Positions 27,433 through 30,394 of a DNA stretch of 40,059 bases are shown here, piece by piece. The DNA is taken from positions 28,037 through 68,095 of the forward strand of contig PMAF01000200.1 of assembly GCA_003152455.1 (NCBI GenBank), in the 5' to 3' direction. Within the stretch, counting starts at the first letter, position 1; every line of letters begins with the position of its first letter. The position numbers were made by a program, and so were the translations under genes. This DNA comes from Hyphomicrobiales bacterium (GTDB lineage Bacteria; Pseudomonadota; Alphaproteobacteria; Rhizobiales; Xanthobacteraceae). The notes below the pieces were generated by a model that saw only the letters and a list, made by a program, of their open reading frames with translations, was not told the origin of the DNA and made no database searches.

Positions 27433-27903
27433 TCAGGCGCTGTGCCGCGCCTCGCCGATCGGCAGCGCGGTGGTCGATTTGATCCGTTCCATGGCGAAGC
27501 GTGAGGTGACGTTCTTGAGCGGAACGGTCGCGATCAGCTTCTTGTAGAAGGTGTCGTAGCCCGCGATGTCGGGCACCACCACGCGCAGCATGTAGTCGAC
27601 GTCGCCGGCCATCCGGTAAAATTCCATTACCTCCGGCATGCCGCCCACGGTCTCGGCGAAGCGCTTGAGCCAGTCCTGCGAGTGGTCGCCGGTTTCGATC
27701 GACACGAACACCGTGATGCCGAGCCCGATCTTTTCCGGGTCGATCAGCGCGACGCGGCGCAAGATCACCCCGTCGGCTTCCAGCCGCTGCAATCGCTTCC
27801 AGCACGGGGTCGAGGACAGGCCCACCCGCTGACCGATTTCGGCGACCGAGAGCGATGCGTCCTCTTGCACCACGGCGAGGATCTTGCGGTCGATAGCGTC
27901 CAT
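27433..27903 (-). CDS. Lrp/AsnC-family regulator, DecR (YbaO)-like
   Basis: A 156-residue transcription factor with an N-terminal winged HTH (MDAIDRKILAVVQEDASLSVAEIGQRVGLSSTPCWKRLQRLEADGVI) and a C-terminal RAM effector domain. By eye it resembles E. coli DecR/YbaO along its length (TPCWKRL-RLE-DG, VAL-DPEKIGLG, HS--W, MPEV--F-RMAG--DY--RV, FAME-IK-TT-LPI). DecR activates cysteine desulfidation genes in response to cysteine. Here the gene diverges from a rhodanese and a YeeE/YedE transporter, so it likely controls that sulfur module. Family certain; DecR-like specificity is from memory of the sequence and context. Confidence 0.92.
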   Translation of the reverse strand: MDAIDRKILAVVQEDASLSVAEIGQRVGLSSTPCWKRLQRLEADGVILRRVALIDPEKIGLGITVFVSIETGDHSQDWLKRFAETVGGMPEVMEFYRMAGDVDYMLRVVVPDIAGYDTFYKKLIATVPLKNVTSRFAMERIKSTTALPIGEARHSA

Positions 27904-28067: not shown

Positions 28068-29066
28068 ATGACAAAAATCTTTCCCGCCGAAGTTTCCGCC
28101 GCTCTGCGCCGGCTCGCCGCTTGGCTCACGTTGGCATTCGCGCTTGCCGTCGTGCTGGCCGCGCCCGCCGCTGCCGCCGATGCGCAGCCGCTGGTGACAC
28201 CCGCTTGGCTCAACAGCCATCTGCACGACCCGAATCTGGTGGTGCTCGACATCCGCTCGGCCATCGACGGCAGCAAGCCGGAGACTTTTGCGCAGGGGCA
28301 TATCCCGGGCGCCGTGCATAGCGACTACGATCAAGGCGGTTGGCGCGTCACCGTGCACAACGTGCCGTTCATGTTGCCGAGCCTCCTGGAAATCCAGAAC
28401 CTGATCGGAAATCTCGGGATTGACGAGAACAGTCACGTGGTCGTCGTGCCGGCCGGCGTCAGCTACACCGATTTCGGTTCCGCCGCGCGCGTCTACTGGA
28501 CGCTCAAGGTGGCCGGCGTCCCCGATGTGTCGATCCTCGACGGCGGCATCGCAGCCTGGAAACAGGCGGGCTTGCCGTTCGAGCGGGGCGAGAACAAGCC
28601 GACGCCGAAGACGCTTTTTGTCGATGGCGACGAAAAATCGCTGGCCAAGCTCGCCGACGTGGAAAAAATCGTGCAGGCCGGCGGCGCCACGCTGGTCGAT
28701 GCTCGTCCCGCGTCTTTCTTCACCGGCGCGGAAAGAGCGCCGAAGGTCGCTGCCTATGGCCATATACCGGGCGCGATCGATGTGGACAGCGCCGAGTTCT
28801 ACGACGCAAAGACCAACCGCTTGAAGCCGACGGCGGCGCTTGCGGCGGTGGCCGCACGGATTCCGCCCGGGCCGGTGGTGAGCTACTGTAACACCGGCCA
28901 CTGGTCGGCCACCGACTGGTTCGTGCTGCACGAGTTGCTCGGCCGCCATAACGTCAAGCTCTATGACGGCTCGATGGTGGAGTGGACCGGAAATGCGAGC
29001 CGCCCTATCGTGTCGTCGCGCACCAAGTGGGACGATCTGATGAAGAAGCTTGGCCTGGGTTCCTGA
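28068..29066 (+). CDS. Exported two-domain rhodanese (sulfurtransferase)
   Basis: A 332-residue sulfurtransferase, probably transferring sulfane sulfur from thiosulfate or 3-mercaptopyruvate in the periplasm. A signal peptide covers about residues 1-37. The N-terminal rhodanese domain (about 43-172) keeps the fold motifs VVLDIRS, GHIPGAVHSDY and SILDGGIAAWKQAGLP but has no Cys in its active-site loop (VVVPAGVSYTDFGSAA). The C-terminal domain has the catalytic Cys274 in SYCNTGHWSATDWF, the only Cys of the protein. It starts the rightward sulfur operon, divergent from the Lrp-family gene; the transporter follows after 22 bp. Confidence 0.93.
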   Translation: MTKIFPAEVSAALRRLAAWLTLAFALAVVLAAPAAAADAQPLVTPAWLNSHLHDPNLVVLDIRSAIDGSKPETFAQGHIPGAVHSDYDQGGWRVTVHNVPFMLPSLLEIQNLIGNLGIDENSHVVVVPAGVSYTDFGSAARVYWTLKVAGVPDVSILDGGIAAWKQAGLPFERGENKPTPKTLFVDGDEKSLAKLADVEKIVQAGGATLVDARPASFFTGAERAPKVAAYGHIPGAIDVDSAEFYDAKTNRLKPTAALAAVAARIPPGPVVSYCNTGHWSATDWFVLHELLGRHNVKLYDGSMVEWTGNASRPIVSSRTKWDDLMKKLGLGS

Positions 29067-29088: not shown

Positions 29089-30237
29089 ATGTCCACCGCA
29101 GCCTTGAGCACGCCCGATACGCGGGCAGGCGTCAGCGTCGACCGCCTGTTCCTCGGGCTCGCCCTGATCGCGACCGCAATCCTGCTCGCGTTGGTGCTGC
29201 TCGACGGCCAGCCCGCTTCGGCGGCGCTGATCGTCGGCGGCTTCGGTCTCGGCATCGCGTTTCTGAAAGCCGAGTTCAGCTACACCGCGTCCTGGCGGCG
29301 CTTCCTGACGCGCGGGGAGGCGGGCGGTCTGCTCGGCGGGCTGATCGTGATCGCGATCTGCGCGCTGGCGGTCGTGCCGGTCGCCGCGCTTCGGCAGAAT
29401 TTCGGCGGCGCCATCGCGCCGCTCGGTCCTTCGCTCCTTATCGGCGCCTTCACCTTCGGGATCGGCATGCAGCTCGCCAATGGCTGCGGCTCCGGCACGC
29501 TCTACACCGTCGGCGGCGGCTCGGGGCGCATGCTGATCGCGCTGCTGTTCTTCGTCATCGGCAGCGTCTTCGGCAGCCTGTCACTGCCGTCGTTCCTGGC
29601 GCTCGGCGGCATCGATCCGATCCTCGCCTCCGACTACCTCGGCCCTTGGGGCGGGTTGGCGGCGACATTGGCGAGCATCGCGGTGGCCGCCGCGTTGATC
29701 GTCGCGGTCGCCAAGCGGCGCGGCGCAAACTACATGCCATCGCGTAATTATATCATCGGCGGCATCGCCATCGGGCTGTTGTGCGTAGAGGTCTTCGCCG
29801 CCGGCGGCCATCCCTGGAGCGTGACTTACGGCTACACAATTTGGGGCGCCAAGATATTCAGTGCGCTCGGCTACGACTTCTCCCATGCGAATTTCTGGCA
29901 ATGGCCGGGTAACAAGCAGGCGCTGACCAGCTCGGTGCTGTCCGACACCTCGAGCCTTACGGACTTCGGAATGTTGTTCGGCGCCATGGCGGCCGCCGCC
30001 GCGACCAAGCCGTTCGCCGCCACCGCCTGGCCGCCGCTGAAATCGCTGCTGGCCGCAGGCGTCGGCGGCCTGCTGATGGGCTGGGGCGCGCGGCTGGGCT
30101 TTGGCTGCAATATCGGCGCCTTTGTCGGCGGCGTCGCTTCCGGTTCGCTGCACGGCTGGGTCTGGTTCGCCGCCGCGCTGCCCGGCTGCCTGATCGGCAT
30201 CCGCCTGCGGCCGCTGTTCGGCCTGTCGCGGGATTAG
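29089..30237 (+). CDS. YeeE/YedE-family (TsuA-like) sulfur transporter
   Basis: A 382-residue polytopic membrane protein with around ten helices. The duplicated family signature is present: GIGMQLANGCGSGTLYTVGGGSGRM (Cys133) and RLGFGCNIGAFVGGVASGSLHGWVW (Cys340), with Cys367 near the last helix. In TsuA of Spirochaeta, conserved cysteines pass thiosulfate through the membrane, so thiosulfate or a similar sulfur compound is the likely cargo. I chose ATG 29089 rather than the track's 29050 because GGGGAG lies just upstream. The neighbouring rhodanese and DecR-like regulator support a sulfur role. Confidence 0.9.
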   Translation: MSTAALSTPDTRAGVSVDRLFLGLALIATAILLALVLLDGQPASAALIVGGFGLGIAFLKAEFSYTASWRRFLTRGEAGGLLGGLIVIAICALAVVPVAALRQNFGGAIAPLGPSLLIGAFTFGIGMQLANGCGSGTLYTVGGGSGRMLIALLFFVIGSVFGSLSLPSFLALGGIDPILASDYLGPWGGLAATLASIAVAAALIVAVAKRRGANYMPSRNYIIGGIAIGLLCVEVFAAGGHPWSVTYGYTIWGAKIFSALGYDFSHANFWQWPGNKQALTSSVLSDTSSLTDFGMLFGAMAAAAATKPFAATAWPPLKSLLAAGVGGLLMGWGARLGFGCNIGAFVGGVASGSLHGWVWFAAALPGCLIGIRLRPLFGLSRD

Positions 30238-30241
30238 CCTT

Positions 30242-30394
30242 ATGCGGAAGGTTTACATCGTCGTCGTTTTGCTCGGGCTGGTGGCGATCGTCGGCAACCA
30301 TCTGATCAGCCCGTCGAGCGGCCGCGCGATGTCGCCGGAGGATTTCGCCGGCGCCTGCGCGCCTTGCGGCGCGCCCTGTCCGTCGAAGAAGTAG
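30242..30394 (+). CDS. Small membrane-anchored cysteine-rich protein of the sulfur operon
   Basis: A 50-residue protein missing from the ORF track. It starts four bases after the transporter stop and ends exactly where the convergent pfkB gene ends. Residues 4-22 form one hydrophobic segment (VYIVVVLLGLVAIVGNHLI); the tail is SPSSGRAMSPEDFAGACAPCGAPCPSKK with Cys39, Cys42 and Cys46 (CxxCxxxC). With a basic MRK start the tail should face the periplasm. It could carry sulfane sulfur between the rhodanese and the transporter, or bind a metal. I do not recognise a named family. Support comes from position, anchor and the Cys pattern; no strong ribosome site is visible, so coupling to the transporter gene is likely. 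Confidence 0.65.
   Translation: MRKVYIVVVLLGLVAIVGNHLISPSSGRAMSPEDFAGACAPCGAPCPSKK

Follow-up and report, generated by a model that had tools for sequence, protein, structure and literature searches.

An overlooked 50-residue CAPCGAPC protein encoded behind rhodanese and YeeE genes is a putative tethered sulfane-sulfur carrier

Gene content of the locus

In the window, i.e. the whole analysed stretch of 40,059 nucleotides from a Hyphomicrobiales bacterium of the Xanthobacteraceae, a rhodanese gene and a gene for a YeeE/YedE-family permease are followed by a short ORF. The relevant features are the following:

27433-27903, minus strand: divergent Lrp/AsnC-type regulator, which neighbours the module in 29 related loci
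28068-29066, plus strand: tandem-domain rhodanese with an N-terminal signal-like segment and a single Cys, C274, in the loop CNTGHW
29089-30237, plus strand: YeeE/YedE-family permease (PF04143) of 382 residues with conserved C133 and C340
30242-30394, plus strand: short gene for a 50-residue membrane-anchored CAPCGAPC protein (third gene of class A, see below)
30245-30307, plus strand: residues 2-22, predicted transmembrane helix of variable sequence (AlphaFold2 helix; pN/pS 0.58 over residues 4-19)
30296-30313, plus strand: residues 19-24, NHLISP, at the outer helix end; the alignments have DHLxSP as their consensus
30356-30379, plus strand: residues 39-46, CAPCGAPC, invariant in the class A alignments

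The protein encoded at 30242-30394 on the plus strand is MRKVYIVVVLLGLVAIVGNHLISPSSGRAMSPEDFAGACAPCGAPCPSKK. The ORF begins with ATG four bases past the YeeE stop codon (30235-30237) and its stop adjoins the end (30395) of a convergent PfkB-family gene, in agreement with a preliminary description of this DNA, according to which it fills the gap between YeeE and the next gene. That description had also proposed a membrane anchor and a periplasmic tail with three Cys. One hydrophobic segment followed by a tail with CAPCGAPC is indeed present, while the periplasmic side of the tail is a prediction from the positive-inside rule only: of the 92 distinct class A proteins, 89 carry more positive charge on the N-terminal flank than on the tail, which predicts a periplasmic tail.

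When the short protein is modelled alone with AlphaFold2, the helix at residues 2-22 has a pLDDT of about 96 and the tail one of about 69. A joint model with YeeE was obtained for the homologous locus L018 by reading the in-frame stop as Gln. The YeeE part of this read-through model has the TsuA fold (Foldseek match to 6leo, E 1.4e-8, TMt 0.74), and the CAPCGAPC block reaches a pLDDT of 81, compared to 69 for the tail alone. As weak evidence, this rise beside YeeE mildly favours a contact between the two proteins in the model.

The rhodanese was previously said to have one catalytic Cys. In the window copy C274 is the only Cys, and so it is with 53 of the 55 rhodaneses directly upstream of YeeE in the survey described below, which have exactly one Cys; the loop CNTGHW is found in 51 of the 55. 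The window YeeE belongs to PF04143 (157 bits vs. a gathering threshold of 27). Its C133 and C340, conserved in YeeE proteins with and without an adjacent rhodanese, align with C91 and C293 of TsuA, and the third relay Cys of TsuA (C22) corresponds to Ser64. The earlier label of a Cys-relay transporter is thus correct for the first and second relay cysteines (C340 and C133) and fails for the third. Classification as TsuA proper was rejected on the same substitution and on a score of 44.3 bits against the NCBIfam TsuA equivalog, whose cut-off is 400. The best NCBIfam score of this YeeE is to the selenium-linked YedE/FdhT model, far under its cut-off.

The Lrp/AsnC-type gene is a possible regulator or sensor for the module; a divergent gene of this type also lies upstream of the rhodanese in Afifella-type loci (L100, L111). 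No TusA-family gene is found in the window operon, the single match in the genome being on another contig. SoxY is encoded elsewhere in the genome.

Selection on the short gene and its class A relatives

Within the genus, the short gene is present in 32 of the 37 genomes searched (the window's own and 36 others), with E values of about 1e-20 or better. The five genomes without it also have no YeeE ortholog, and their rhodaneses are only 31-36% identical; gain and loss of the short gene within the genus go with the whole module. The preliminary description had suggested comparing synonymous with nonsynonymous change. Calculated from 32 sequences, pN/pS amounts to 0.009 in the tail (residues 31-47), as against 0.58 in the helix (residues 4-19) and 0.30 for the complete ORF. 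Since synonymous changes are frequent in these same tail codons, the tail is under strong purifying selection as a protein. Loss of the frame or of the three Cys in relatives with the same gene order had been named beforehand as grounds for discarding the gene; frame and all three Cys are kept there, so such grounds did not arise. The overlooked 50-residue ORF is a real, selected protein-coding gene. A chance ORF is ruled out by its presence in 32 of 37 genomes, by the tail pN/pS of 0.009 and by its joint absence with YeeE. A fusion or readthrough artefact was likewise rejected, as a frame change or a stop codon mostly separates the short gene from YeeE and most loci provide it with a start of its own; the sole long frame (L002/L035) resembles a YeeE frameshift.

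Relatives of the same class, termed class A, were collected by a named-genome scan and an order-level profile search. They occur in Xanthobacteraceae, Rhodobiaceae, SAR116, Afifella and Tepidamorphus and, outside the Alphaproteobacteria, in the gammaproteobacterial Marinobacter, Halomonas, Saccharospirillum and Nitrincola, giving 92 distinct proteins across the Alpha- and Gammaproteobacteria. No class A relative was found in plasmid records with a Halomonas query. In nearly all class A loci with sufficient flank the gene order is rhodanese, YeeE, short gene, and many of the short genes lie -4, -1 or 3 to 5 nt from YeeE, spacings that suggest translational coupling. The defining features of the class, namely an N-terminal helix, [DNQ]HLxSP, CAPCGAPC and a position directly behind YeeE, are all present in the window gene. 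The sampled alignments show no variation at H20, at S23 or within CAPCGAPC; as the named-genome scan used CAPCGAPC as its search key, the invariance of the motif there is partly by construction. In the YeeE-seeded sets, which were not keyed to the pattern, CAPCGAPC is found in 22 of 22 complete class A members, class A itself being recognised by the tail. No downstream (fourth) gene is conserved across all loci and taxa. In small-genome Rhodobiaceae-type loci, the gene next after the class A gene encodes a DsbA-like thioredoxin (L033:4162-4884, L088, L090 and L093-L095).

Coupling to rhodanese-YeeE pairs and the tail classes

Independently of the tail pattern, we surveyed class, phylum and order samples starting from YeeE. 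Among 137 distinct YeeE loci, a rhodanese lies directly upstream in 55, and in 53 of these 55 pairs a one-helix, Cys-tailed ORF comes next. The figure of 53 is made up of 47 loci recognised by fixed criteria (a helix and Cys ORF behind YeeE), plus 7 added by inspection (L154, L226, L228, L229, L234, L236 and L287, which are below the hydropathy threshold or further off), minus one doubtful case (L251) judged to be false. No recognisable third gene was found in the pairs L152 and L251, nor at a distant pair in the genome G006 (YeeE 30% identical), which lies outside the 55; the third gene is therefore not essential to every such pair. For the YeeE loci without an adjacent upstream rhodanese the result is the reverse: 79 of 82 have no Cys-tailed one-helix ORF, the three exceptions being L172 (YeeE broken in the contig), L202 (rhodanese further downstream) and L248. 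Going by these gene neighbourhoods, and beyond what the preliminary description had noted, the short gene represents one variant of a third component that is general to rhodanese-YeeE loci.

Two further observations concern YeeE copies without a rhodanese. In 16 of the 79, a Cys lies within the last five residues (...SGC, ...TAC; loci with this ending are L187, L189, L191-L195, L197-L201, L203 and L205), and this terminal Cys is possibly a built-in acceptor. At L178, L271 and L272, a small ORF that resembles a c-type cytochrome (CxGCH) has a four-base overlap with the YeeE stop.

The third genes fall into three main classes. Class A has the CAPCGAPC tail. In class B, which includes a gene on S. 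meliloti pSymB, an anchor with DH is followed by PCAAGAPC, NPCAA or SPCAPAA repeats (Pro-Cys-Ala/Gly) with 2 to 28 Cys. In class C the tail contains just one Cys, 5-10 residues from the C-terminus (...LGSxxAxSGxFC). In addition, L169 represents a further type with a single PCG and several His, and L287 is a hybrid of an A-like DHLHSP anchor and a C-like GGHC end. The distribution of the three main classes over the YeeE tree requires 3, 2 and 1 changes, which points to few origins long kept rather than to 53 independent events. Comparison of the anchor profiles gives 91.7% for A with C and 68.7% for A with B; because this similarity is the only link between them, the classes may be analogues, although homology of A and C is plausible from the profiles.

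Among the class B-like forms, the third genes of L180 (~2711), L181 and L182 encode 162-205 residues with NPCAA repeats and up to 28 Cys; no family model scores above its cut-off for them, CefA being sub-threshold. A DUF6969 (PF22308) gene follows the class B third gene in some loci (L207:4505-5038, L202:2886-3552, L228, L229 and L234), and the DUF6969 protein of S. meliloti carries HCHPAEE...HGHFH.

Proposed role and its alternatives

The preliminary description knew of no named family for the short protein, and the searches found none: nothing in Pfam or NCBIfam scores above threshold, a PDB search by sequence gives no match, and a literature text search for 'CAPCGAPC' and 'CNTGHW' found no paper. 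Several known systems share part of its character. Like the short protein, YeeD/TsuB of the TusA family is a small protein that is encoded with YeeE/TsuA and adds a Cys to the sulfur path (PMC11073785); unlike it, YeeD is cytosolic and folded and has a CPxP motif, whereas the short protein is a membrane-anchored tail on the predicted opposite side. Identity with TusA/YeeD (PF01206 domain with CPxP) was rejected, the short protein being without any Pfam match. A small Cys-bearing YeeE accessory is thus already known from YeeD, and what is new are the side, as predicted, the anchor and the sequence. SoxY of SoxYZ carries its Cys on a flexible C-terminal periplasmic arm, and the tail described here would work in a like manner; class C tails end in a SoxY-like manner (SGGFCGALP-like). 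The short protein differs from SoxY in its one-helix anchor and in having no SoxY domain; identity with SoxY (PF13501, C-terminal GGCGG arm) was rejected on the lack of a Pfam match. Regular Cys spacing is shared with the CefA 'Cys-every-fifth' peptides (NF038108) by the class B repeat tails only; that identity was rejected as well, the best score being 18.7 bits against a cut-off of 30 for the class B repeat form and class A giving no match. In the SoxT1A neighbourhood of Hyphomicrobium denitrificans, Hden_0678 is similarly a one-helix protein of 56 residues near a YeeE-like transporter, but it has no Cys and lies in a different gene set, with a DsbA-like protein and a cytoplasmic rhodanese (PMC11582611).

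What was observed is a selected protein with an invariant tail, near-constant coupling to rhodanese-YeeE pairs, and different tail types in one slot. We consider its most likely function, with a rough probability of 0.45, to be that of a putative tethered periplasmic carrier of sulfane sulfur between the rhodanese and YeeE. Rhodaneses are established to pass sulfane sulfur from a donor to a thiol. In the proposed mechanism, the secreted rhodanese would obtain sulfane sulfur from a donor such as thiosulfate. The short protein would be held in the inner membrane by its one helix, with a flexible tail in the periplasm; its tail cysteines would accept the sulfur as a persulfide and offer it to YeeE at the periplasmic mouth for import. 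In this way, the short gene would provide the thiol acceptor that is otherwise lacking at the membrane. We infer the topology, the association with YeeE, the persulfide chemistry and the direction of transfer alike. The sulfane-sulfur shuttle, already suggested in the preliminary description, is the best-supported of the mechanisms considered and remains putative; the single-Cys relatives strengthen the case, since a lone tail Cys near the C-terminus fits a carrier arm.

There are published precedents. Sulfane sulfur made in the periplasm by PspE reaches the cytoplasm (PMC10215317), zero-valent sulfur is imported by YedE1E2 (PMC10812762), and the TsuA relay runs from outside through C293, C91 and C22 to C17 of YeeD, the fourth cysteine (PMC11073785). 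How sulfur is presented to SoxT was stated to be unresolved (PMC11582611). The tail would be a tethered 'cysteine zero' ahead of the first cysteine of the transporter, mirroring the cytosolic 'fourth cysteine' of YeeD behind TsuA.

The single Cys of class C bears on two alternatives at once: if the classes share a job, it argues against both an obligatory disulfide and a multi-Cys metal site. A redox role, in which the tail acts as a thioredoxin-like dithiol/disulfide site (CxPC) to reduce either the persulfide of the rhodanese or the cysteines of YeeE and carries no sulfur, appears unlikely to us, because class C in the same slot cannot form an internal disulfide and the PDB search gave no match; the resemblance of CAPC to thioredoxin-type CxPC motifs and the six Rhodobiaceae-type loci with a DsbA-like gene behind the short gene count in its favour. 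We think it similarly improbable that the tail binds Cu(I), Zn or a metalloid and that the sulfur chemistry of the module is linked to metals or selenium, although for class A taken by itself three Cys so close together would fit metal binding just as well. Such a role would suit the three Cys within eight residues of class A, the up to 28 Cys of class B, the additional His of the L169 tail, a weak match of one class A member to the SO_0444 Cu/Zn efflux model (E 7e-4) and the sub-threshold preference of the window YeeE for the selenium-linked YedE/FdhT model. Against it, class C has no obvious metal-ligand cluster, and we know of no metal role for this rhodanese or for a YeeE of this type.

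One-helix partners of transporters are common, and the short protein could serve YeeE as a subunit for structure or targeting, or could anchor the rhodanese, with Cys for docking only. The 56-residue Cys-less membrane protein near another YeeE clade (Hden_0678, PMC11582611) is in line with such a subunit. We judge this quite unlikely, given that the Cys tail shows near-zero amino-acid change beside a drifting helix; furthermore, none of the third genes found in the pairs is free of Cys, although Cys was a search criterion. Exported Cys-rich precursors exist as well, and the NPCAA-repeat form does score against CefA, under the cut-off. It is nevertheless very improbable that a Cys-modified peptide (a bufferin- or CefA-like RiPP) is made from the short protein: no conserved maturation gene was found nearby, and 11 of 15 class A genomes, i.e. 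the window's own and 10 of the 14 others, lack the maturase family MNIO (PF05114), by which an obligatory MNIO-dependent RiPP was rejected.

The carrier reading can be widened, albeit doubtfully, to the whole set of loci. Rhodanese, YeeE and a one-helix 'cysteine-zero' carrier might then form a common three-part machine for sulfane-sulfur import with a modular tail of 1 Cys, 3 Cys or up to 28 Pro-Cys-Ala/Gly units, the last a possible surface persulfide reservoir. A strictly conserved subunit of this kind can be missed by gene callers because it is only about 50 residues long, and CAPCGAPC behind YeeE provides a signature for its annotation. If the short protein is indeed a carrier, the presentation of sulfane sulfur to YeeE-like importers would become testable through one small, genetically coupled gene.
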